Shown piece by piece: positions 3,253-19,528 of a stretch of DNA of 22,172 nucleotides. The DNA lies in assembly GCA_016840305.1 (NCBI GenBank), contig JAEOSP010000351.1, positions 1-22,172 on the forward strand. The letters are read 5' to 3'. The translations under genes were made by a program, and so were the position numbers. The stretch's first letter is position 1, and every line of letters starts with the position of its first letter. This DNA is from Candidatus Hodarchaeota archaeon. GTDB lineage: Archaea; Asgardarchaeota; Heimdallarchaeia; Hodarchaeales; Hodarchaeaceae. The notes under the pieces are model-generated. The model was not told the origin of the DNA. It did not search any database and saw only the letters and a program-made list of their open reading frames with translations.

Positions 3253-4173
3253 CTATTTACCTTTTGTCCAAGAATTGATAGCAAATTTTTTCGAAAATCC
3301 TGTAACATCATATAAACGGTTAGCTGCTGGTGTGGTGGCAGCTCCATCAATATAAAAGAATGGGGGATCATATTTCATTGATCGTTTAATCCCTTCACTT
3401 AACAGTGCTTTCCCCAGCCCAAGTTTTCTGAAATCAGGATTCGTTCCCATTGGTTCTAGGCTAATAATCCTACTATTTGGATCAAATCTAAATGTACAAA
3501 ATGAAGCGATGATTCCTGCAGGAGTAACCGCAACTAAATCTAATTCTTCCTTATAAAAAGTACAATTAGAAAGCCATTCAAGAACTCCAGCAGTAAACCA
3601 TTCTCCATGCCCAAATACTCTACGAATCAATAAGGCCTGTTGTTCAAATTCTTCTTTTTTTATTGCTCTAATTTCAAATCCTTCAGGACAACTGTAATCT
3701 GGGATAGGTAACTTTGCATCTCGAATTCTGTAATAACCGTATAATTTTTCGTTCACATAACCTAATTCTTTCAAAAGTGCTTCACGTTGGGTATTCCCCT
3801 CTAAAATGTTAATTGCGAATTTCCTACCTCTCTTCTCATCCGTTTTCCTCTTAGTATCGTATTTTTCCAACCATTCTATCATTTCTTTCTCCAAGTAACG
3901 GTAGCTTGGATCAATGTGAAGAAAAAAATCACTTGAGGAATCACGTGTTGTCAATGCGACAATCTTATGTACATTAGGACGGACAGCTGTATCGATTTCT
4001 TCCCAAATTCGTATTGCATCTTCTCTCTCCTCGCTACTATTTTCAAACCGATCTGGGAACCAATTCTCATAACTTTGAGTTTTAAGGAATAAATCTGCTA
4101 AAAATTCCATAACAGGTTTGAAATCCTTTTCTTTAATGTAAGCTCGAGATCTTATTGACATGTTTACACCCAT
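3253..4173 (-). CDS. Two-domain GNAT-family N-acetyltransferase
   Basis: This 306-residue protein is twice the length of one GNAT domain. The C-terminal domain (about 163-303) has the acetyl-CoA pyrophosphate-binding motif RKLGLGKAL (249-257, pattern R-x-x-G-x-G) after a beta strand ending LEPMGT. It also has the family's closing segment AANRLYDVTGF (283-293). The N-terminal half ends in ILEGNTQREALLKELGYV (123-140), which resembles the last strand and helix of a second, degenerate GNAT fold lacking a clear CoA motif. The family transfers acyl groups from acyl-CoA to amines or protein N-termini; the acceptor is unknown. The second ATG (4161) has GGGTG five to six bases upstream, so a start four residues shorter is possible. 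A second protein of the same two-part design lies at 18587-19528. Confidence 0.82.
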   Translation of the reverse strand: MGVNMSIRSRAYIKEKDFKPVMEFLADLFLKTQSYENWFPDRFENSSEEREDAIRIWEEIDTAVRPNVHKIVALTTRDSSSDFFLHIDPSYRYLEKEMIEWLEKYDTKRKTDEKRGRKFAINILEGNTQREALLKELGYVNEKLYGYYRIRDAKLPIPDYSCPEGFEIRAIKKEEFEQQALLIRRVFGHGEWFTAGVLEWLSNCTFYKEELDLVAVTPAGIIASFCTFRFDPNSRIISLEPMGTNPDFRKLGLGKALLSEGIKRSMKYDPPFFYIDGAATTPAANRLYDVTGFSKKFAINSWTKGK

Positions 4174-6965: not shown

Positions 6966-8753
6966 CTAAACAATACTCTGATGTTCATAATATTGTTTGT
7001 ATAACATTCCATATTTTCCATTTTTAGCGAGTAAAGAACTATGTGTACCTTCTTCAATGATTTTTCCTTTTTCCATCACAATAATTCTGTCTGCTTTTAA
7101 AATAGTTGAGAGCCTATGGGCTATAAAAATAGAAGTGCGTCCAGTTAATAGTATTTCGAGAGCTTCTTGAATAATAGCTTCTGTATAGGCATCAACACTA
7201 GAGGTGGCTTCATCTAGAATTAGTATTTTCGGATTAGTTAATAATGCGCGTGCAAAGCTTATTAATTGTTTTTGACCAGCTGATAGTCCTTTCCCTCTTT
7301 CACCTACTTGAGTCTGAAGACCATCAGGTAGATATTCTATCAATTCACTTAAATTTACCGCCTCTATCGTTTTTATAAGCTCCTCTTCTGTTGCATACTG
7401 GTTACCAAACCTAATATTTTCTTCTAAAGTGCCTGAGAATAAAAATACGTCTTGTTGAACCATCGCAATATTTCTCCGATAAGATTCTAATTTCAGGTCT
7501 CGAATATTGATTCCATCAATATTGATAGTTCCACCTTGAAATTCATAAAGTCTAGCTATTAATTTGACTAAACTGGTTTTACCCGCACCAGTATGCCCTA
7601 CAATGGCAAGTTTCTCACCATCTTGAATTTTAAGATTAAAATCTTTTAGCACGTATCCTCCCTCTCTATAAAAGAAATCTACATCCTTAAATTCAATTTC
7701 CCCTTTTAATTTATCAACCTCAATTTCTTTAGAATTCTGCTGTATGTTTGGTTCTGAATCTAAAATTTCAAGGATCCGTTCATATGCTGCCATTCCTGCA
7801 CTAAGCTCAGGATAAAAAGTAGCCAAAACCATGACTGGTTGAAAAAATTTTTGAACATAGAAAATATACACTACAACCACTGCTATATCAGCTAATCCCT
7901 GAACTATCATTTGCTGCCCAAGCAATATTATAATTACTAAAATAATTGCAGTAATTGTATCTAAAATTGATCTCCAAACGTGTGTAACAGCTGTTAACCG
8001 AAAAGCACTTTTAAAATACTCCTCATTCGTGTCATTAAATTTCATCGAAACAGTTGTTTCTTGTCCATAACTTTTACATACCTGTATTCCCTCCATAGCT
8101 TCAACCATTGAGGAATTTACATTACTTATTGAGAGTCGATAAGTACGACTTACTCGTCTAGCTAGTTTTCTTAAGGAAAACATCAATAAGAAGAGAATTG
8201 GGATACCTGTTACCGTTATCAGAGCCAAAACTGGATTTAATATAAACAGAATCCCAAAAGTTAGTAAACTGACAAGTAAATTTCCTACAGTATCTGTTAG
8301 TAATATAGTGGTGTTCCCAAAATCAAGGGCATCATTTAAAACGCGTGAATTTAAATTTCCTGAAAGGTATTTATCATAAAAACTCATATCTTGGATCTGT
8401 AACCTATCGAATATTTCCATCCTGATATCTTCTAGGAAAAAAGGTACAAAATTACCAACTTCTCGTCGTCGTAAGCTGAACATGATCCAAATCAATGTAG
8501 ATAGGATAAGATAAAGGGCTCCTGCAATTATAATACTCTCAAAAATCGGATTTAATCCCTCAAATTCACTTACAACTATTCCAAATATCAATGGAATTAA
8601 GATATCAGCAATAGTAGATATCAAAATGAACATTGACAGTAATATAACGCTTTTCTTATAAGGAATAATACTTTTAATATAACGTTTAAGCAATTCCTGA
8701 TCAGAGTATTCACTTCTACTCCTATCCTTCAAGAGGCCTCTATAAAGTCCCAT
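6966..8753 (-). CDS. ABC exporter half-transporter, consensus partner (ABC-B, MsbA-like)
   Basis: This 595-residue protein is a type IV ABC exporter half. Six membrane helices lie in residues 30-315 and an ATPase domain in about 350-590. Walker A is GHTGAGKTS (386-394, K392), the Q-loop VQQD is at 432-435, the signature is LSAGQ (490-494), Walker B is ILILDE with the catalytic Glu E515, and the switch His is H546 (AHRLST). The Walker motifs are intact, but the signature is LSAGQ rather than LSGGQ. This deviation is known from the consensus subunit of heterodimeric exporters, where the altered signature completes the partner's degenerate site. It starts 17 bases after the partner gene stops, so the two are surely co-transcribed. 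Substrates of this family range from lipids to drugs and peptides and cannot be told from sequence. Confidence 0.93.
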   Translation of the reverse strand: MGLYRGLLKDRSRSEYSDQELLKRYIKSIIPYKKSVILLSMFILISTIADILIPLIFGIVVSEFEGLNPIFESIIIAGALYLILSTLIWIMFSLRRREVGNFVPFFLEDIRMEIFDRLQIQDMSFYDKYLSGNLNSRVLNDALDFGNTTILLTDTVGNLLVSLLTFGILFILNPVLALITVTGIPILFLLMFSLRKLARRVSRTYRLSISNVNSSMVEAMEGIQVCKSYGQETTVSMKFNDTNEEYFKSAFRLTAVTHVWRSILDTITAIILVIIILLGQQMIVQGLADIAVVVVYIFYVQKFFQPVMVLATFYPELSAGMAAYERILEILDSEPNIQQNSKEIEVDKLKGEIEFKDVDFFYREGGYVLKDFNLKIQDGEKLAIVGHTGAGKTSLVKLIARLYEFQGGTINIDGINIRDLKLESYRRNIAMVQQDVFLFSGTLEENIRFGNQYATEEELIKTIEAVNLSELIEYLPDGLQTQVGERGKGLSAGQKQLISFARALLTNPKILILDEATSSVDAYTEAIIQEALEILLTGRTSIFIAHRLSTILKADRIIVMEKGKIIEEGTHSSLLAKNGKYGMLYKQYYEHQSIV

Positions 8754-8770
8754 GGTAGTTCACTTCGCTA

Positions 8771-10537
8771 TCAATGCATTACTAATTCTGGTAAAGCAAG
8801 ATGTTTTCCAAAAATACGACGATAATCTTCTGAGCTCTTCAATAAATTGTCATGATGTCCTTCTGCTACGATTCTTCCTGATTTCAAAACAATGATTTTG
8901 TCTGAGGATCTAATGGTATGCAATCTATGAGTTATAATCAATGTAGTTCGATTTTCCGTAATATTATTCATTGCTTGGCTTATTTTTTCTTCTGTTTCAC
9001 TATCTACGGCTGAGACTGAATCATCCAAGATCAAAATTTCTGGATCTGTTAAGAAAGCTCTTGCAATAGCAATTCGTTGTTTTTCTCCACCAGATAAGCG
9101 TGTTCCTCGTTCACCTACAACAGTATTGTAACCTTCTGAAAATTCTGAAACGAATTCATCGACTTGAGCAAGTTTAGCTGCTGCGATTATTTCATCACGA
9201 GTCGCTTCAGGTTTCCCAAAGGCAATATTCTGATCAATTCCTCTTGAAAATAGATAAAGGTCTTGCTCAATATAACCTATGTGTCTACGCAGTGTATCTA
9301 GTGGATAAGTTCGAATATCTTTGTCATCCAGTAGAATTTTACCTTCCTGGGGTTCATAAAGGAGTAGTAATAACTTTACCAATGTGGTCTTTCCACAGCC
9401 CGTTGGTCCGCAGAGAGCGATTTTTTGATTTGGCTCGATAGTAAATGAGAGATTTTTCAGAACAGGTAATTTCTTATCATTTTCATAAGCAAAAGTAACA
9501 TTTTTGAATTCTATTTTTCCTTTAAAATTGTCTGGCCAGTTTTCAACATGATTGTAATAATCTTCACTTTCCTCCATAATGAGTGCTTTGAATAATCGTG
9601 AGCACGCTGCAAATCCACTCATCATATCATTCGTTGCCCAATAAATCATATTTGACGGATGTATTAGGGATATTAACATCAAATTGACTGCAGTCAATTC
9701 ACCAATGGTGAAAGTTTCTTGAAAAACAAATACACTGCTTACAAGAAAACTAATTCCTATAGTTATGTACAGAAATAATAGAGAATAGAATTTTGATTGT
9801 GCTATTGTTTCACCAATCGTATTATCTTTGTATTCTTTAACTACTTTGCTAAATTTTTTCCTTTCTGAAGCTTCTGCTACGAAAGATCTAATAATAGCTG
9901 CTCCACTTATATTATCTTGTAATCCTACTGCTAGATTTGAATGTTTTTCCATTCTAGCAACTGCATATGGTGTGATTTTTTTTCTGTAGTCAAAAATGAA
10001 ATAAAAGTAGAGAATGAGAAATGGGATAGTTATGAATGAGAGGCGTTGATCAATCGTAAAAATTATCAATATTGCTGCCATTAACAGTTGAAAGAATGGG
10101 TAAATGAAAAAAGCCCCATGAGAAATCATTGTATTAATCACGCGAAGATCATTTGTGGCTAATGCCTGTAAGTCCCCCGTACGAGCTTTATCATGATATC
10201 TGAGGGGTTTATACTGCAAAGAGTCAAAGAATTCCTGTCTCATGGTTTTTTCAATCCTAAATCCTAGAAAGTGACCAACCATCATCGTTAAATAATCCAT
10301 CGAGTTACGAATGAGATAGATAACGAGAAATATTAGTAGTAATAGCAGTAAATTAGATATTTCTCGATTCGTGATTATGCTATCAATGATATTGCCAATT
10401 ATGACAGGAATAATCACTCTTGAAAGCGTTACAATGCTTATTCCTAAGAGAGTACCTATCAATAATGTCTTCTGATTGAGAAGATGATAAACAAGCCATT
10501 TTCTGTAGCTTTTGTACTTTTTGATGTTTGATATCAT
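8771..10537 (-). CDS. ABC exporter half-transporter, degenerate partner (ABC-B)
   Basis: The protein has 588 residues from the chosen start. The membrane domain covers about 15-310 and the ATPase about 340-580. Walker A is GPTGCGKTT (377-385), the signature LSGGE (481-485) is intact, and the H-loop His is H537 (THRLHT). Walker B reads ILILDDSVS, so the catalytic glutamate position is Asp (D506). A Glu-to-Asp change at this place marks the non-hydrolysing or slow site of heterodimeric exporters such as TM287/288. The next gene supplies the consensus partner. An ATG at 10537 is preferred over a TTG at 10567, because a TATA-like element at 10574-10584 would put the transcription start near 10550, downstream of the TTG. 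It is the first gene of the two-gene transporter operon and is divergent from the small membrane protein gene. Confidence 0.92.
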   Translation of the reverse strand: MISNIKKYKSYRKWLVYHLLNQKTLLIGTLLGISIVTLSRVIIPVIIGNIIDSIITNREISNLLLLLLIFLVIYLIRNSMDYLTMMVGHFLGFRIEKTMRQEFFDSLQYKPLRYHDKARTGDLQALATNDLRVINTMISHGAFFIYPFFQLLMAAILIIFTIDQRLSFITIPFLILYFYFIFDYRKKITPYAVARMEKHSNLAVGLQDNISGAAIIRSFVAEASERKKFSKVVKEYKDNTIGETIAQSKFYSLLFLYITIGISFLVSSVFVFQETFTIGELTAVNLMLISLIHPSNMIYWATNDMMSGFAACSRLFKALIMEESEDYYNHVENWPDNFKGKIEFKNVTFAYENDKKLPVLKNLSFTIEPNQKIALCGPTGCGKTTLVKLLLLLYEPQEGKILLDDKDIRTYPLDTLRRHIGYIEQDLYLFSRGIDQNIAFGKPEATRDEIIAAAKLAQVDEFVSEFSEGYNTVVGERGTRLSGGEKQRIAIARAFLTDPEILILDDSVSAVDSETEEKISQAMNNITENRTTLIITHRLHTIRSSDKIIVLKSGRIVAEGHHDNLLKSSEDYRRIFGKHLALPELVMH

Positions 10538-10573
10538 TATAATAGCACGAAGCAAGCCTTTAATCAAGCCAAG

Positions 10574-11143: not shown

Positions 11144-12454
11144 CTAATTCCGCCTTCTCCAACTGAAAAGCAACTTTTTCATAGATATTTCTAGAATTCC
11201 TTCATTTTCTATTACTCTTCCCGCGAACCATATGGTGATTCCAATCCATACTAGCTGAAAGACCAAGGTTAACCATGTAACAATTGTCATCTGACCAGTT
11301 AAAATCGCCATATACATTCCAAACATATAACCTAATAATGGTAGAAGTAGTAGTATTATTTGTAATATTTCAGGTAGCTTATCTAGTGGAATAAATCCGA
11401 GGAACATAACACCAAGCATCGGGAATAGGATAAAAGATGATACTACCATGTTCGCTTCTCGTTCATCTTTTGCAAGCATGCTAAACAAGACAGCAGCTGC
11501 TACTAGCAATATTGAAATCAATATCAAACCTATTATAACGTAACCAAAGAACAACCAGAGGCTAGCATCTGCAGCATCTAGCACAAACGTTAGAACATCA
11601 TCTACTTGATCTCTCATTTCACTTGGTAACATTAGTAATATTGTAGCAATTATTACAATAGTTGTTAACGCAAGAGAAAACAGATTGAAAGCGACTAATA
11701 TCATTCCGTAGAGCATTTTGCCTGCAATAATGTTCCTTCTTTCTATAGGCTGCAATAACAAACTTTCCAAAGTTTTTTGCTCTCTTTCAATCGTTACGGA
11801 AATTAATACTAGTGTTAGTGACGGTATCACAAGAAGAAATATTGCATATAATGGTATCGTCGTTAGGTACCCCGTTATCACAGATGGTAACTCTTCTCCA
11901 ATTCTTACATCATAAACTGCTGTCAATCTAGTTATTTTTACTGGACCGTGTTCACTATAGACCAGCATTAGGTTTAATTGATTAGCAATTGACGTGATAC
12001 TCGTCACAGCTTCAATAGCTTCCGATTTATCGCCATTGTAGTAAATATAAAACAATGCAGGAATAGGATACAATGTTACATTAGATCTGGTAACCATTTC
12101 ACTGAAATTTGCAGGTATATATAGTAGGACTGTCAAATTTTCTGAGTCAAGCAAATTATCTAGCTCATGAACTGACTTGTTTACATAATGAAGATCTTTA
12201 GTGCTATTTTGAGTTTTCAGCATACTATAGAAAATGTCACCGTAAAAATTCCCGTTGTCACCAGTGTCATCCTGTATTACTATAACATCTAATACCCCCC
12301 CTCCAGGTGGGGCGAATACAAATGCAAAAAAGAGCGTTGCTATAACTACTAATAAAATGATTGCTGGTGTCATCACAAGCAATAAAATTCGTCTAGTCGA
12401 CTTGAATAATAATCTTATCTCTTTTTTAGCAATAATCCATGCATCTTTTACCAT
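11144..12454 (-). CDS. ABC-2 type transporter permease (NatB-like)
   Basis: This 436-residue protein has the ABC-2/NatB layout. One helix (about 23-48) is followed by a large extracytoplasmic domain (about 50-195) with several N-x-S/T sequons. Then come six further helices (about 199-220, 246-275, 298-325, 336-355, 362-381, 393-411). The segment EREQKTLESLLLQPIERR (223-240) before helix 3 is the expected cytoplasmic coupling region that contacts the ATPase. The C-terminus is basic (SWRRRN). It should form the membrane channel of the transporter whose ATPase is encoded directly upstream: the ATPase stop codon TAG is followed at once by this gene's ATG, which implies translational coupling. NatAB-type pumps export sodium or organic molecules, but the substrate here is unknown. 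Confidence 0.88.
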   Translation of the reverse strand: MVKDAWIIAKKEIRLLFKSTRRILLLVMTPAIILLVVIATLFFAFVFAPPGGGVLDVIVIQDDTGDNGNFYGDIFYSMLKTQNSTKDLHYVNKSVHELDNLLDSENLTVLLYIPANFSEMVTRSNVTLYPIPALFYIYYNGDKSEAIEAVTSITSIANQLNLMLVYSEHGPVKITRLTAVYDVRIGEELPSVITGYLTTIPLYAIFLLVIPSLTLVLISVTIEREQKTLESLLLQPIERRNIIAGKMLYGMILVAFNLFSLALTTIVIIATILLMLPSEMRDQVDDVLTFVLDAADASLWLFFGYVIIGLILISILLVAAAVLFSMLAKDEREANMVVSSFILFPMLGVMFLGFIPLDKLPEILQIILLLLPLLGYMFGMYMAILTGQMTIVTWLTLVFQLVWIGITIWFAGRVIENEGILEISMKKLLFSWRRRN

Positions 12455-13237
12455 CTAAACATCCTCCTGATCACCTTTCCACCCTATCAGCTTTACAACG
12501 GCATCTTCCAGATCACCGCTCTCTTTGGCGTACTCTTCAACTATTCCAGTCGGAGTATCTTCAGCAACTAATTCTCCACAGTGTAAAACTCCCACTCTAT
12601 CGCATAAACGCTCTGCTGAAATCATATCGTGAGTTGAAATCATCACGGTCATATTCTTTTTTTTTGCAAATGATTTGATGAGTTCTCTAACACGACGGGC
12701 AACTAATACGTCAATCCCTGCAGTAGGTTCGTCCAAGAAGAGTACTTTTGGATTTCCTAAAATTGCTCTAGCAATCATTAATCTTCTCTTCATCCCCCCT
12801 GAATAGGTATCTACACGATCATTTTTTCTATCCGTTAATCTAATTAATGCCAGTAGTTCCTCAATTTGGCTTCTTCTTTCTTCTTCATCAAGTCCTCTTA
12901 ACTGTGCAGTGAAATCGAGATTCTCAACTGCGTTAAATTCTTCGTAAAGACCAGCATCTTGAGGAAGGCACCCAACCATTTGTCTAACGGCACTTGATTC
13001 ACTCACGACATCTTTACCGAGAATATATGCTGAACCTGATGTAGCTTTCATCATAGTGGTGAGAACACGTACAGTAGTTGTTTTACCAGCTCCATTCTCT
13101 CCTAATAATCCGTAAATTTCTCCTTGCTTAATCCCCAATGAAAGGTTTTTTACTGCATGTAGTTCGCTAGAATGACCAACATTGTATATCTTGTTCACAT
13201 TATTTGTATAAATTGCGTAACTTTCCACCAGAATCAC
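12455..13237 (-). CDS. ABC transporter ATP-binding protein (NatA/CcmA-like)
   Basis: This 260-residue ATPase has Walker A GENGAGKTT (46-54, K52), a Q-loop at LPQD (Q93), signature YSGGM (145-149), Walker B VLFLDEP with catalytic E170, a TAGID D-loop and switch His H203 (STHD). The YSGGMKRRL form of the signature and the short C-terminal extension are typical of the NatA/daunorubicin-resistance group that pairs with ABC-2 permeases, and the permease gene follows with no spacer. It hydrolyses ATP at the cytoplasmic face to drive export. The start is GTG at 13237, with a second GTG three codons later (13228). The TATA-like TTTTTTAAAC at 13261-13270 would give a leaderless transcript starting at about 13238, which favours the first. 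Confidence 0.92.
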   Translation of the reverse strand: MILVESYAIYTNNVNKIYNVGHSSELHAVKNLSLGIKQGEIYGLLGENGAGKTTTVRVLTTMMKATSGSAYILGKDVVSESSAVRQMVGCLPQDAGLYEEFNAVENLDFTAQLRGLDEEERRSQIEELLALIRLTDRKNDRVDTYSGGMKRRLMIARAILGNPKVLFLDEPTAGIDVLVARRVRELIKSFAKKKNMTVMISTHDMISAERLCDRVGVLHCGELVAEDTPTGIVEEYAKESGDLEDAVVKLIGWKGDQEDV

Positions 13238-13760: not shown

Positions 13761-15734
13761 ATGTCTACAATAATTGATATAGACCAGATATTCCAATTCT
13801 TTATTGTATTAACTTCAAACCAGATAAAAAAGACTTTTGATTTAGAAGAATCAGAAAAAATTCTAGCTCAATTCTCTAAAAGGTTTAATGAACTTTTTGA
13901 ACAATTAAAAGAGACAAAAAAAGATACTGAAATTTTTCAGGGAATCAATCCGATATTTGTAATATCCTTAGAGGAGTCTCTCCCTACTACTGAAAAAGAA
14001 AAAAAGCGATTAACGGAACATGTACTTGCAGTTTATAAAATGATGCTGAAAGATCTTGTACTAGAACCACAGAGACGATTTATGACATCCTCCAAAGATC
14101 CTTGGTCAACATTCATTGAGAATACGAGAACTGGGAATAAAAGAACATATGATAATGAATATTTCAAACTTCATGAGATCTCAGCTAGTGATAAAGAGTT
14201 TGCTTTTGACATTAACCGTTGTTTATATCAAGAAATTTTCAAAGAATTCGGACGTGAAGATCTAGGTCCAATCATGTGTGAGTATGATTCAATTATTGCT
14301 CATAATGTAGCAGAATGGGTAAGATTTGAACGTAAAGAGACTATTGCGGCAGGTTGTGACAGATGTACATTCAGATATTTCAGTATTAAGAAGAAATATT
14401 CTGATAATCCAGTGATTGATAGCATATACTCCTTTCTCAATATCATTGATAACTCTGATGAGATGTTAACAAGACAGGAAATTAATAAGAAAGGATTTGA
14501 TAAACAAGTTGATCTTGAAGATATAGTAAAACTCTACCAGTTCGTAAAGAACCATTCAGGACTTAAAACCTCAACAGAAAACGAGGAACTATTATTAGGG
14601 AATGTAAACAGTTATGAACAGTATGAGGAATGGAAATTACTTTTCAACCGTAAGATTTCCAAGAATAAAAGATCATATATAATCAGAAAGTTGCCCATTG
14701 TTCTTAAAGACGAGAAAATCAATCGATTAATTACAGATATTCTTGATAACCCTTATGAACTTGCATCCATTAAATGGGTCTGTCTTAACTATCTGCAGAA
14801 TCACTTTTCATCTCGTGTTGAGTTTGAGGTTGAGGGTGTCGATATATTCCAAGTAAATGTAGGTTTATTGGAGGAATTCAGATCTAAATTTCCTAAAATT
14901 TCTTTTGAAACCCGATCAATAGATAATACGAAGATAGTCCTTCAAGCTTTCGGTAAGGGGGTTCCAGAGTATAAATTAAAAGAACCTATTCAACTTTTAC
15001 GTAGAGAAATAGTCAAAGATTTTCCTGATGCAGGTATTTCACCTATTAGGCCTATTATATCTATTGATCCTGTAGCGAAGAAGTTTTTTGATATTTTTGA
15101 GGATTCCGATCAAGAATTCCAACTACGTGAATTGGCACTTAGAATTCTCATTAGCCGAGTTGGGGATAAGCTAGTTCCGTTCCTTAATATTGTGGCCGAA
15201 AATAAAGAAGATGATCAATTCCTAAGAGGGAGGGCTATAGACTCGCTTTCTTGGGTCACAAGCACTTTACCTAACGTATATACAACAAACGAAGATTTTA
15301 CTGATTTACCTAATCCAGTAAAGCGATCAATCATAGACTTCGTTGCAAGGCAGGGTACGGAGGAAGACTTGTTGCTAAATATCGCACACAATGAAAAAAA
15401 TGATGATATCATTCGAATCATTGCAATACGCAATTTACAAACGTATCAAGATCCGAAAGTGACAAATTTTCTGTTGAAATTCACAATTGATAAATTGAAT
15501 ACTGAACGATTAAGACAGGCTTCATTAGAAGCTCTTGAACAGCACAATGTTGACTATAAAGGCAAAATGCAGTTATTCGAGATTTTCACTGATCCAGGAG
15601 AGACTACATTCATACGGATGGAGGCTTTTGAAACTCTCAAAGAACTTGTCCTTGAACTCGAAAAAGACACTGCTAAATTAGATAATCCTGATTGGATTAC
15701 ATCAATTGGGATTAAACTGATTATGGTGGACTAA
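13761..15734 (+). CDS. ATC-hydrolase-like domain fused to HEAT-like repeats
   Basis: The protein has 657 residues. Residues about 85-210 match the L-2-amino-thiazoline-4-carboxylic acid (ATC) hydrolase family pattern. It has FDINRC (149-154), an EFGREDLGPIMCEYD segment (162-176, C173 and D176), RFERKETIAAG (188-198) and CTFRYF (202-207). The cysteines C154, C173 and C202 sit at family-conserved places. In bacteria the named enzyme opens a thiazoline ring on the way to cysteine, but most relatives have no known role. Residues about 210-430 are unassigned. Residues about 440-640 form repeated helix pairs (LRELALRIL, RGRAIDSLSWV, IRIIAIRNL, LRQASLEALEQ, IRMEAFETL), typical of HEAT or PBS-lyase repeats used for protein binding. 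No signal peptide or membrane helix is seen. The stop is two bases before the next ATG, so the two genes are translationally coupled and their products probably interact. Confidence 0.75.
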   Translation: MSTIIDIDQIFQFFIVLTSNQIKKTFDLEESEKILAQFSKRFNELFEQLKETKKDTEIFQGINPIFVISLEESLPTTEKEKKRLTEHVLAVYKMMLKDLVLEPQRRFMTSSKDPWSTFIENTRTGNKRTYDNEYFKLHEISASDKEFAFDINRCLYQEIFKEFGREDLGPIMCEYDSIIAHNVAEWVRFERKETIAAGCDRCTFRYFSIKKKYSDNPVIDSIYSFLNIIDNSDEMLTRQEINKKGFDKQVDLEDIVKLYQFVKNHSGLKTSTENEELLLGNVNSYEQYEEWKLLFNRKISKNKRSYIIRKLPIVLKDEKINRLITDILDNPYELASIKWVCLNYLQNHFSSRVEFEVEGVDIFQVNVGLLEEFRSKFPKISFETRSIDNTKIVLQAFGKGVPEYKLKEPIQLLRREIVKDFPDAGISPIRPIISIDPVAKKFFDIFEDSDQEFQLRELALRILISRVGDKLVPFLNIVAENKEDDQFLRGRAIDSLSWVTSTLPNVYTTNEDFTDLPNPVKRSIIDFVARQGTEEDLLLNIAHNEKNDDIIRIIAIRNLQTYQDPKVTNFLLKFTIDKLNTERLRQASLEALEQHNVDYKGKMQLFEIFTDPGETTFIRMEAFETLKELVLELEKDTAKLDNPDWITSIGIKLIMVD

Positions 15735-15736
15735 AG

Positions 15737-18547
15737 ATGAATTTTGACGTAGCAGTTAAAACAATACAGCTTTATTTAAACAAACAGAGCTTTTTACATG
15801 AAATTACTTCGATTGAGGATCTTAAACAATTACAAACTCCAGTTATTAGTTTAATACTTACAAAAAAACGAAATACCTTCCATATTTCTGACGAAATACT
15901 GTTTAGAAAAGGTATTTCCTTTTTAAATGACGATTGGGTGGATTATAAATCATTAGAAAAGGAAAAAGCTAGAATTAAACAGCTTCTCAAAGGTAAGGAA
16001 TTGAAAATAACTGAAAATCAACAAACAAAGCGTCTCATCATTAAATCATCAATTGACCTTTTCAACAACTTAGCTGAGGGTAAAATAATCAAATCGGGAT
16101 TCAGGGATCTCTTCGATAACTGTAAAGAAATAAAACTTGAAGATAGTATTCTCATCTTAAAGAGAAATCCAGAAACCTCAACATTCGACGAACTCTTACT
16201 AATTAGAGGACCCATGAATGATAAAACTACTGAATTACCCGATTTCTTAAGTTCAATAGAAAAAATTACTGAATTTTCCTATCAAAACACACCTCATACT
16301 CTTCCCCCAAGGGTGGATCATTTCCTTTCTTATCGGGTTTTGAAAAATACCAGCAAACTCAATTGGGATATGAACCAAATAAGAACGTATTTAGGATCTA
16401 TTTGGAATGAAAGAACTCCATCCACGGTTAACTCGCGTTTGAATCTTCTGTTTGAAAGTACCGTACTTTTAACAGAAAAAAATAAGGTCTTTAATAAATT
16501 CCTACAGGTTGATAAAGTACAAAAAAGAATGGTAGGTATTCCAAGTAATTTCATCTTAGGAGTGTGCGGAGGTTATGCTAGGGGTGAATTTTCTGATACT
16601 TCTGATTTGGATATGCTTCTGATACATGAAGGTAACAATCAACAATTCCGACAAGTAGGTGAAGCTCTCAATCAAGTATTACAACATGTTCCTAATCTTG
16701 AGTTATGCAAATTAGAGAACCTAGTTAACCTAAATTTTCACGAAAATTCGATTCCAAATCTTTTAAAGGCGTTCATTACAGGTGATGAACATTTCCTTGA
16801 GCTGAGTCAGAGAAAAGGACTCGACGAGATGTTAAGTAACATTGAAACACTGCGTAAGACTCCAGTATCTCCTGAAGAAAGAAAAGATGGCATTAGTAAA
16901 TATTGTTGGTCAATTTACAAATCTATAGTCAATATGGTTCCCATTTATGAAAAGCCCATTGGAAAAGGGAAGTTTCTAAGGGAACGGATCACCAAAATGA
17001 CCAAGAGTGAAATCCATGATATAATTCCAATTCTTCTTCGAGTTACCCCATCGCTCAAAGACGACAACAATTCTCTAGGTGAAAACCTACGAGTATGTCA
17101 GCCTTTTCTGTACGATTCAGTCTTTAAGACCTATTCTGTTATCACTGCTTTGCAGGATCTTAGTACAATTTTAGCCATTCTTACCAATACTACTTTTAAT
17201 TCTTCTACTATTGATAGGTTTAAGATAGCGATTGAGAAGAAAATATTATCTGAAGAACAGGGAATTAAATTAATTCAAGGATATAAGTGTTTTTCAGAAA
17301 CAAAATACAAATTAAATAAAGAAATGCCCATTGAAGCTGTAGAACACATAAATGAGGAAATTAAAATAATCTTAAAGGAAGCGTATAATAACCTAATTCA
17401 AGGTTTAGGTCCAAAAGAAGTTGTTGAGGAAAGTATAAACATTGCTTATCCTCTTCTTATTTTTAGCGACCTTCATTGGGGTTTAAACAGTAAATTAGCT
17501 GAGCAATCCCTCATTAAAGTAAAGAGAGTTTGCGAAGAGCATCATGTTCGATCTATCATTATTGCTGGTGATGTTCTAAACGTTGATCGTGTTAATGAAC
17601 TAGAAAAATCCGATAAAGAAGGTATCTCTCTTCTCAACGAACTATCACGAATTCAAAATTCTCTAGGAGATCAAAGGATACATATTTTATCTGGTAATCA
17701 TGATCCTGAATCCTTTTATAATAGGTTCAGTAGTAAAATGATCAATGAGTTAGATATTCATTTTTTAGGTAAAATCTACAAGAATGATCAAATCTGGATT
17801 GAACATGGTGATCTAGATTTTTGGAGCAATTTTACTCCCCCATTAAATGAATATGTTTCCACTTATAGAGAGAAAAATCAGATAAAAAATCAGAAAATTA
17901 TTGTTGGCCACAATCACCGTGTCCATGAGGATATAGGATCAGGATTTTATGCTAATGGCTCCATTGGAAAATCTTTTTCCTCGATATTAGTAACAGAAAA
18001 CTCGATTGAGCTATTAAAGTTACCTATAGAATACTCTATCAACTTTGATGAAATATTGACAGAATATTCGGAAATAATAAATGCAGACACTTCAATCAAT
18101 GAATATGTACAAGAAAATTTTGGATTAGTTGAATGGAACCAATATACCACCAGCTTAGCTGAGAATGGTACCTCTCAAAAGAAGACATGGATTGTAACAG
18201 AGAAAAGTGAACCTACTGGAATAATCCCTTTCAATAGAGTTGAAAAAGTAAGTAAATTGGAGAATATCCAGGTCTTTGAAGTCGCTTTTCCAATAAATTA
18301 TTCTTTCAAGATGGATCAAACTCTGAAAGAAGTATGGGCAGTATTTTCTGTTACTGGTGATTCAATACTCCCCGTCTTGAATCAAGAAAAAGAGATAGTA
18401 GGGACATTATCTATCTTCAGTGTTCCCAAACCGCAAAAGGAACATGCTGAAACTAAAGAAGCTGAAATCGATGAAAAAATGAAGAGTGTCGGGGACTTTT
18501 TGGTGGAGAAACTTCTTGGCAAACAAGAGAAAAAAAAAGGAAATTAG
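15737..18547 (+). CDS. Nucleotidyltransferase - metallophosphoesterase - CBS fusion protein (GlnD/DUF294-like)
   Basis: The protein has 936 residues. Residues 1-200 are unassigned. About 235-360 is a GlnD/DUF294-type nucleotidyltransferase: GGYARGEFSDTSDLDMLL (278-295) carries the GG and the metal-binding D290 and D292, and LLKAFITGDEHFLEL (342-356) follows as in GlnD relatives. About 370-555 is helical, and TIDRFKIAIEKKILSEEQ (491-508) resembles the DUF294 C-terminal region. About 570-760 is a calcineurin-type phosphoesterase with all five motifs: D578-x-H580, G611-D612, GNHD 653-656, H690 (EHGD) and GHNH 724-727. About 785-895 looks like a CBS pair (WIVTE, TGIIPFNRV, then SILPVLNQEKEIVGTLSI). 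The tail is charged. It could attach and remove a nucleotide on a target or handle a nucleotide signal, with the CBS part as sensor. The start ATG follows GGTGGA in the upstream gene, two bases after that gene's stop. Confidence 0.85.
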   Translation: MNFDVAVKTIQLYLNKQSFLHEITSIEDLKQLQTPVISLILTKKRNTFHISDEILFRKGISFLNDDWVDYKSLEKEKARIKQLLKGKELKITENQQTKRLIIKSSIDLFNNLAEGKIIKSGFRDLFDNCKEIKLEDSILILKRNPETSTFDELLLIRGPMNDKTTELPDFLSSIEKITEFSYQNTPHTLPPRVDHFLSYRVLKNTSKLNWDMNQIRTYLGSIWNERTPSTVNSRLNLLFESTVLLTEKNKVFNKFLQVDKVQKRMVGIPSNFILGVCGGYARGEFSDTSDLDMLLIHEGNNQQFRQVGEALNQVLQHVPNLELCKLENLVNLNFHENSIPNLLKAFITGDEHFLELSQRKGLDEMLSNIETLRKTPVSPEERKDGISKYCWSIYKSIVNMVPIYEKPIGKGKFLRERITKMTKSEIHDIIPILLRVTPSLKDDNNSLGENLRVCQPFLYDSVFKTYSVITALQDLSTILAILTNTTFNSSTIDRFKIAIEKKILSEEQGIKLIQGYKCFSETKYKLNKEMPIEAVEHINEEIKIILKEAYNNLIQGLGPKEVVEESINIAYPLLIFSDLHWGLNSKLAEQSLIKVKRVCEEHHVRSIIIAGDVLNVDRVNELEKSDKEGISLLNELSRIQNSLGDQRIHILSGNHDPESFYNRFSSKMINELDIHFLGKIYKNDQIWIEHGDLDFWSNFTPPLNEYVSTYREKNQIKNQKIIVGHNHRVHEDIGSGFYANGSIGKSFSSILVTENSIELLKLPIEYSINFDEILTEYSEIINADTSINEYVQENFGLVEWNQYTTSLAENGTSQKKTWIVTEKSEPTGIIPFNRVEKVSKLENIQVFEVAFPINYSFKMDQTLKEVWAVFSVTGDSILPVLNQEKEIVGTLSIFSVPKPQKEHAETKEAEIDEKMKSVGDFLVEKLLGKQEKKKGN

Positions 18548-18586: not shown

Positions 18587-19528
18587 CTATTCATTATTTC
18601 TTTTATTCCAAACATAAACAATATATTGATTTGTTTCAGTGAATCCAAGAGATGCATAGAGTTTCGAAGCATTGCTGTTATCAAGGGTGACATCTAACTC
18701 AATTTTGGGAGAGGATGGTTCATTTTTAATGAATTCCTTCAAACTAAAAGCCATTATCTGTTTCCCCAACCCTTTATTTTTCTCAGTATTGGATACTACA
18801 ATTTCTGGTATATAACCAACCTCATTTGCTAATAATGTTAAGAAGCAAACTGCTATTGGCTTCCCATCTTTCTCAATGACTTTACTGAGATGGGGATTGA
18901 ATTTCCCATATTGATTACTTTCAATTCCATTTAGGAGATCCATACATCCTTTTATACCATTCCAATTCTCCCATATCAATCCATCTGGATGATTTTTATT
19001 GAAATGAGATAATGACATTACTTCAGCTAAACTTTCTTTGTCTTCAATCTTGTATTCTCTAAATTTATAACCAGGAGGAAGAGTAGGTTCAGCTAAGGAT
19101 TCTAAAGATCCTTGATTAATCCTCATTCGTGCTCGCTTGAAGGATAGAAAATTGTTTTTATCCATATGCAGGGCTAGGAGTTCAGAAACTGAACCCATGT
19201 ATTTCACTGATTGAGATACTTTCTTCAATTTGGAAAAAGCTTCATCGAAAAGGTCTAGTTCAACCATAGTGAGTTTCATTTCTTCTATCAAATATTCATT
19301 AAGAATTATATTCATTCCAGCGGCATTAAGATTAATTACTACAAAACCAATGACTTCATTGTTTAGAAATTTTGCATAAATTTCTATTGATTTCTTTTTC
19401 AACCCTTCATCTAATCTATCCTTTAATGGATATTTTGGACGATTAAATTTCTCATTTAAATATTGTAAGTACCCAGTTATTGTTGAATCCAATAAATCTA
19501 ATTCTTTACTTGTTATCCTCTTAATCAC
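18587..19528 (-). CDS. Two-domain GNAT-family N-acetyltransferase
   Basis: This 313-residue protein has a GNAT domain at about 153-310. It contains the strand YIPEIVVS and the acetyl-CoA motif KNKGLGKQI (250-258, R/K-x-x-G-x-G type), then IELDVTLDNSNASKLYASLGF (277-297), the classical last strand and helix. The N-terminal half has a strand pair, EVIGFVVINLNAAG (58-71), suggesting a second GNAT-like half without a CoA motif, as in the acetyltransferase gene at 3253-4173. The acceptor is unknown. The start is GTG at 19528 with GAGGAA about seven bases upstream. It converges on the nucleotidyltransferase-phosphoesterase gene with a 39-base gap and appears to be transcribed alone. Confidence 0.82.
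   Translation of the reverse strand: MIKRITSKELDLLDSTITGYLQYLNEKFNRPKYPLKDRLDEGLKKKSIEIYAKFLNNEVIGFVVINLNAAGMNIILNEYLIEEMKLTMVELDLFDEAFSKLKKVSQSVKYMGSVSELLALHMDKNNFLSFKRARMRINQGSLESLAEPTLPPGYKFREYKIEDKESLAEVMSLSHFNKNHPDGLIWENWNGIKGCMDLLNGIESNQYGKFNPHLSKVIEKDGKPIAVCFLTLLANEVGYIPEIVVSNTEKNKGLGKQIMAFSLKEFIKNEPSSPKIELDVTLDNSNASKLYASLGFTETNQYIVYVWNKRNNE

Follow-up and report, generated by a model that had tools for sequence, protein, structure and literature searches.

A 22,172-nucleotide stretch of the contig JAEOSP010000351.1 from a Candidatus Hodarchaeota archaeon (assembly GCA_016840305.1), hereinafter the window, encodes on its forward strand a fused protein of 936 amino acids (P0001; 15737..18547). 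In a single open reading frame (ORF), this protein combines an unassigned N-terminal region, a GlnD-like nucleotidyltransferase core, a region that may be helical, a complete calcineurin-type metallophosphoesterase, and a C-terminal CBS pair. An earlier note on this DNA had described one chain, with the correct coordinates and frame; residues 1-204 have to be added to that description as a further region. A homologue search in which the 7,989 candidates sharing most words were scored yielded 46 proteins, including the query and partial sequences, that is, 45 proteins other than P0001; 37 of the 46 make up the alignment set, and the 9 shorter ones were left out. Profiles of six regions of the fused protein, which rest on closely related sequences, were each compared with 188 Escherichia coli ORF products (non-overlapping, at least 130 amino acids long, and possibly including non-genes).

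The transferase core (16454..16861, forward strand; residues about 240-375) is identified by the Pfam domain PF01909, which matches 33 of the 37 aligned members at E 0.01, by the NCBIfam GlnD models, which match up to 31 of them at the same threshold, and by profile comparison, in which GlnD ranks first among the 188 products (92.8%, score 53.7), followed by GlnE at 25.6. The GlnD match covers the GGYxRxE...SDxD stretch. The GlnD-type motif reported in the earlier note is indeed present: the catalytic signature G278-G279-Y-x-R282-x-E284...D290-x-D292 (16568..16612, forward strand) is invariant, with G278, G279, R282, E284, D290, and D292 identical across the alignment, and the motif recurs in all 46 listed proteins, partial ones included. 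In P0001, the motif reads GG278-279...D290-L-D292, with a spacing of 11 from GG to D, in agreement with the polymerase-beta-type pattern. For a third acidic residue, the picture is less definite: 34 of the 37 members have E or D at position 322, and E327, invariant in the 37, is not preserved in the split relative discussed below. In P0001 itself, NTP_transf_2 is found below the cut-off (E 0.0038), and the GlnD models fall far below their curated cut-offs (for example, 19.3 bits versus 519.4 for TIGR01693). Neither PolyA_pol (PF01743) nor tRNA_NucTransf2 (PF09249) matches P0001 in Pfam.

The phosphoesterase domain (17444..18022, forward strand; residues about 570-762) is recognized by PF12850 and PF00149, detected in 35 and 26 of the 37 members, respectively (E 0.01), and by its profile, for which SbcD is the top match among the 188 products (90.9%, score 50.0); CpdA, another phosphoesterase, comes second with 25.6 but does not stand out, since the third product reaches 25.1. 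All five calcineurin-type motifs, which the earlier note had considered intact, are present in P0001, on the forward strand: D578-x-H580 (motif I, 17468..17476; 37 of 37), G611-D612-x-x-N615 (motif II, 17567..17581; D612 and N615 in 37 of 37), G653-N654-H655-D656 (motif III, 17693..17704; invariant), H690 in the context H690-G-D (motif IV, 17804..17806; 37 of 37), and G724-H725-x-H727, which is GHNH in P0001 (motif V, 17906..17917; H725 in 37 and H727 in 36 of 37). Altogether, D578, H580, D612, N615, N654, H655, H690, and H725 are invariant in the 37 aligned sequences, and H727 is replaced by N in one. Among the listed proteins that reach far enough, DxH is found in 43 of 43, GD..N and GNHD in 42 of 42, H690 in 41 of 41, and GHxH in 40 of 41; the GHxH exception is P0011, with GHNN, and P0012 is missed by the H690 pattern, yet has the histidine. 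The NCBIfam SbcD and PdeM models match all 37 members at E 0.01, with the SbcD subfamily model reaching 29 bits on P0001 against a cut-off of 77.65. In Pfam, Metallophos_2 matches P0001 with an E value of 5.8e-6 and 26.8 bits, just under the cut-off of 27; the split relative P0051 passes the phosphoesterase cut-off (37 bits versus 21.5). The retention of the transferase and phosphoesterase motifs across nearly all homologues that are long enough is more than chance. Loss of D290/D292 or of the metal ligands in relatives, which would have counted against the domain assignments of the earlier note, is not seen apart from the single H727N replacement.

At the C-terminus, a putative CBS pair (18173..18430, forward strand; residues about 813-898) is supported by profile-profile comparison. 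A CBS-pair profile built from 33 segments of proteins in four Asgard genomes matches this region over about residues 816-893 (93.8%, score 45.0, 78 aligned columns over both halves); the best other region of the fused protein scores 15.8, and the controls give 88.7 for guaB, 63.6 for kdsD, and 19.8 for the next E. coli product. Thus, the CBS-like pair that had been placed behind the phosphoesterase is supported by profile, with controls. When single E. coli sequences were used as CBS probes of the C-terminus, guaB ranked 12, and the kdsD product came first, outside its CBS part. The N-terminal placement of CBS known from DUF294 proteins was rejected for P0001 (profile score 8.4). The ribose-binding motif of CBS domains is given as G-h-h-T/S-x-x-D/N in PMC6429129; in P0001, the T/S and D/N positions are occupied by P831/R834 in the first half and by S892/S895 in the second, that is, the usual ribose-contacting Asp/Asn is missing from both halves, and the ligand motif is degenerate. 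Because of this absence, gating by adenylate binding to the CBS pair, as suggested in the earlier note, is not supported. PseH matches, found in 11 of the 37 members, were taken to be chance matches; the one in P0001 spans residues 797-843, in the area of the first CBS half.

The region that follows the transferase (16862..17422, forward strand; residues 376-562) is possibly a helical substrate-binding domain. It matches DUF294_C in 4 of the 37 members (best E 0.0058), and its consensus does so with an E value of 0.0044 and 17.3 bits (cut-off 22.5); we regard it as, at best, weakly DUF294_C-like. A GlnD-like identity of this region was dropped given the lack of signal in the profile comparison, and GlnD_UR_UTase (PF08335), the helical domain behind the core of E. 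coli GlnD, is detected by Pfam neither in P0001 nor in the consensus or the split protein. The N-terminal region (15737..16348, forward strand; residues 1-204) is the least conserved part of the protein; it is not a CBS region, its consensus has no Pfam match, and there is no convincing match to it among the 188 E. coli ORF products.

Among the matches listed, the nearest named homologue of P0001 comes from a Hodarchaeales archaeon (79% identity), and those with organism names are all from Asgard archaea, mostly Hodarchaeales, Hodarchaeota, and Heimdallarchaeota, with Thorarchaeota, Kariarchaeaceae, and others represented singly. In a survey of 227 genomes of the phylum, 12 matched at E 0.001. 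Of these matches, 8 are long; the 4 short ones, in G110, G160, G165, and G181 (E 1.8e-4 to 4.0e-4), span no more than the transferase motif or the CBS stretch and were excluded from the count. The family is present in 7 of the 14 genomes of one Asgard order (that of G003) and, elsewhere among the 227 genomes, in G041. The contig of G049 holds only residues 2-225, and the gene matches in G001 and G004 are spread over two contigs each. Nonsynonymous divergence (dN) between six fused genes is 0.05-0.29, with synonymous divergence (dS) of at least 0.246 in the 13 of 15 pairs for which it was computable, mostly saturated; the fused gene is under purifying selection. Searches of plasmids, phages, and viral contigs for relatives of the fused protein gave no match, and a mobile origin of the gene was set aside.

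In G041, the same parts appear as three overlapping genes, encoding a HEAT-type protein (288 amino acids), a transferase (533 amino acids), and a phosphoesterase-CBS protein (376 amino acids); the first two genes overlap by 10 bases and the last two by 11. Both active sites are intact in the split pair, which shows 24-41% identity to the fused protein, and the enzyme domain of each split protein scores above a Pfam cut-off. The phosphoesterase frame contains an in-frame stop 7 codons upstream of its ATG, which argues against a simple frameshifted fusion. In this one genome, the CBS region stays with the phosphoesterase. By its sequence, G041 thus carries a predicted natural two-enzyme version of the fused protein. 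With the split proteins as queries and about 8,000 candidates covered per search, no other clear complete split came up. P0046 and P0054, both with a longest listed contig of 10,786 bases, were considered as a possible split and were not counted, P0046 stopping mid-domain and P0054 being named partial; P0049 (403 amino acids; contig of 2,915 bases), which sets in at the position of residue 530 in the fused protein, could be a truncated fused gene.

Directly upstream of the fused gene lies P0047 (13761..15734, forward strand), which in Pfam comprises an ATC_hydrolase-type domain (residues 82-206) and HEAT repeats, with HEAT_2 just under the cut-off. The two genes are separated by 2 bases, a gap conserved in 7 of 8 fused-gene junctions, with L023 differing. 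A ribosome-binding-like stretch, GGTGG (15725..15729, forward strand), lies within the end of P0047, ahead of the ATG of the fused gene, and 6 of the 7 other loci have GGAGG at this position. P0047 adjoins the fused gene upstream in G049 and in all six compared loci, of which L001 has just the end of P0047 on its contig, and a HEAT-type gene is found directly upstream in all 8 carrier genomes; the ATC_hydrolase/HEAT gene is a fixed partner of the fused gene. The HEAT-type protein of G041 is 22% identical to the matching part of P0047. Five other genomes of the class have the ATC_hydrolase-type domain with no HEAT part attached, and no transferase or phosphoesterase relatives were found there in the 8-13 kb around these genes. 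Residues 82-206 of P0047 are ATC_hydrolase/MetOD1-like, and C154, C173, and C202 are invariant in 7 sequences.

P0048 (13299..13673, reverse strand), a divergent gene for a small, basic protein of 124 amino acids without any Pfam match, is a syntenic neighbour that stands beside the gene pair in L002-L006 and L023. Of 58 genomes of the class, 25 have it, a wider distribution than that of the system, and it was therefore judged unlikely to be a dedicated part. The other flanking genes in the compared loci are mostly unlike those of the window. The window further contains two tandem ABC half-exporters (6966-10567, reverse strand; 595 and 598 amino acids), an ABC-2 type permease with an ABC ATPase (11144-13237), and two GNAT acetyltransferases on the reverse strand (3253-4173 and 18587-19528); in L003, a 67% identical relative of the GNAT at 3253-4173 immediately follows the fused gene.

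Several known systems resemble parts of this architecture. Subjected to the same domain scan, E. coli GlnD yields a nucleotidyltransferase, a helical domain, HD, and two consecutive ACT domains, so the comparison with GlnD drawn in the earlier note is apt: the order is the same and the parts are different. Both proteins start this series with a core containing GG..R.E...DxD, followed by a further region, a hydrolase, and a terminal small-molecule sensor. However, where GlnD has HD, P0001 has a metallophosphoesterase and no HD match; where GlnD ends in two ACT domains, P0001 ends in a CBS pair and has no ACT match; and P0001 has the extra N-terminal region. In GlnD, uridylylation is catalysed by the transferase and removal by the HD domain, as outlined in PMC4285133 and PMC3480911. 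Of the families named for profile searches in the earlier note, Metallophos, the GlnD core, and the CBS pair (by the CBS-pair profile) were recovered; DUF294 (14.9 bits on P0001; cut-off 21) and DUF294_C stayed below their cut-offs. In DUF294/DUF294_C proteins (COG2905), the CBS part is N-terminal to the transferase. P0001 shares with them a GlnD-type transferase joined with CBS and a weak DUF294_C signal behind the core, but its CBS pair is C-terminal, a metallophosphoesterase is inserted, and the DUF294_C signal is below the cut-off. DUF294_C had no match in the 227 phylum genomes at E 0.001 (2 of the 14 control genomes match), so proteins of the phylum could not serve as a reference set. 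The C-terminal domains of GlnD, GlnE, and DUF294 proteins have been grouped together (PMC3710099), and the available text of that paper does not describe the present domain order. SbcD-type metallophosphoesterases share the five motifs and are the top profile match, but P0001 is below the SbcD subfamily cut-off, and its domain is placed between a transferase and a CBS pair. CBS-PPase, regulated by adenine nucleotides according to PMC11172384, is likewise a phosphohydrolase carrying a CBS pair; it contains another hydrolase, and the CBS halves of P0001 lack the ribose-motif D/N. The bacterial CCA-adding enzyme combines a polymerase-beta-type core and a phosphohydrolase on one chain. RelA/SpoT do so as well. 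In both cases, the hydrolase is HD rather than a metallophosphoesterase, and the P0001 core has no PolyA_pol match. A literature search for the combination of transferase, metallophosphoesterase, and CBS, including in Asgard archaea, found no description, most subscription papers being outside its scope.

What the sequences show are the profile-supported domains, two intact active sites, a split version, and a fixed gene pair, and it is from this anatomy that we infer the function of the fused protein. We tentatively favour a bifunctional, sensor-controlled enzyme that both attaches a nucleotide mark to a protein other than PII and removes it, built on the GlnD plan with different parts. Under this scheme, the GlnD-like core would move a nucleoside monophosphate from a nucleoside triphosphate onto a protein partner, and cleavage of the phosphodiester link by the metal-dependent phosphoesterase would free the monophosphate, the role of the HD domain in GlnD. 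The CBS pair, which accompanies the phosphoesterase, would tune writing against erasing via small-molecule binding. The ATC_hydrolase/HEAT protein might be a scaffold, an adaptor, or the substrate, and would bring in a second possible ligand-binding domain. Nucleotide transfer onto the neighbouring HEAT protein is possible, as is glutamine synthetase as the target of the transferase; the latter is present in all 8 carrier genomes, in G041 by a partial, weaker match.

Several observations weigh against this reading. PII was found in none of the 8 carrier genomes versus 13 of 14 control genomes (most of the carriers are drafts; G003 is a chromosome record). No tyrosine of the HEAT protein is conserved between the fused-type and split versions, and the HEAT protein was accordingly discarded as a tyrosine target; Ser465 is the sole invariant hydroxyl residue in this comparison, which hinges on one divergent sequence. 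The phosphoesterase is closest to SbcD-type nucleases, and a single literature search for de-AMPylation with a metallophosphoesterase found no paper. The region 376-562 is not clearly GlnD- or DUF294-like, Pfam detects CBS in 1 of the 37 members but misses it in P0001 as well as in the C-terminal consensus and the split relative P0051, and sequence searches of the PDB produced no significant match (best E values 0.12 and 0.055). Moreover, a transferase-hydrolase fusion by itself implies no protein target. The complete scheme, namely, PII-independent reversible protein nucleotidylation in Asgard archaea, with a metallophosphoesterase eraser, two enzymes that one lineage encodes separately united with a CBS pair in a single switch, an ATC_hydrolase/HEAT partner, and a ligand other than canonical adenylate, is more doubtful than its outline.

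The nuclease affinity of the phosphoesterase could instead point to RNA end processing or repair, whereby the transferase would extend RNA 3' ends and the phosphoesterase would trim or heal ends; the bacterial CCA enzyme (transferase plus HD) and Pnkp are the functional comparisons. The top profile match of the phosphoesterase, SbcD, being a nuclease, the matches of the SbcD and PdeM models to every aligned member fit this possibility, as does the HEAT partner, given that HEAT proteins frequently act as scaffolds. Nevertheless, we consider it unlikely: the core matches GlnD, with the E. coli CCA enzyme only at rank 49 of 188, Pfam shows no RNA-binding domain in P0001, and the presence of a further CCA-type family protein in all 8 carrier genomes makes a CCA role of the fused protein unlikely. 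These CCA-type proteins are themselves of two kinds: in G002, the archaeal class (PF09249) without PolyA_pol, and in G001, G003-G006, G041, and G049, PolyA_pol (PF01743) without an archaeal-class match; five of these seven genomes have two PolyA_pol matches. A polymerase-beta-type core, a phosphodiesterase-type domain, and a sensor in one chain, next to a partner gene that adds a second possible ligand-binding domain, might also make and destroy a nucleotide second messenger, following the logic of RelA/SpoT, in which a synthetase, a hydrolase, and a regulatory domain share one chain. This is rather unlikely in our view, because the nearest relative of the transferase core, GlnD, modifies a protein, and there is no messenger synthetase among the Pfam and NCBIfam families listed for P0001.

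Many polymerase-beta-type transferases use small molecules, and the fused protein could modify a small metabolite or a sugar, with the phosphoesterase handling a related metabolite; the variable flanks beyond P0047 and P0048 are what would be expected of a housekeeping enzyme. With no metabolic gene consistently linked to it in the compared loci and a HEAT protein as the partner, such a role seems improbable. An MNT-like role in defence or as a toxin-antitoxin system is suggested by a weak MntA match in 1 of the 37 members, matches to the anti-phage phosphoesterase DS9_1 in 8 of them, and weak PADLOC matches of PDC-S09 to the transferase motif of P0001 (E 0.002-0.009; PADLOC was run on P0001, P0047, P0048, P0051, and P0056 only). 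All these matches are weak, however, and the PDC-S09 stretch is a generic transferase motif. Furthermore, the gene belongs to a fixed pair, occurs in 7 of the order's 14 genomes, and is under purifying selection; no defence-type family stands out among its window neighbours in Pfam; and relatives are lacking in plasmids, phages, and viral contigs. A defence function is, therefore, highly improbable.

The textbook example of a single protein that both adds a nucleotide mark and takes it off in response to a metabolite is GlnD. If the fused protein is indeed a writer and eraser of such a mark, the GlnD plan would have arisen again with interchangeable parts, that is, with another hydrolase, another sensor, and no detected PII. 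The split version offers two separate enzymes that can be assayed singly. Asgard archaea are regarded as the group closest to eukaryotes, and the fused protein, if this reading is true, would point to a new regulatory target in archaea.

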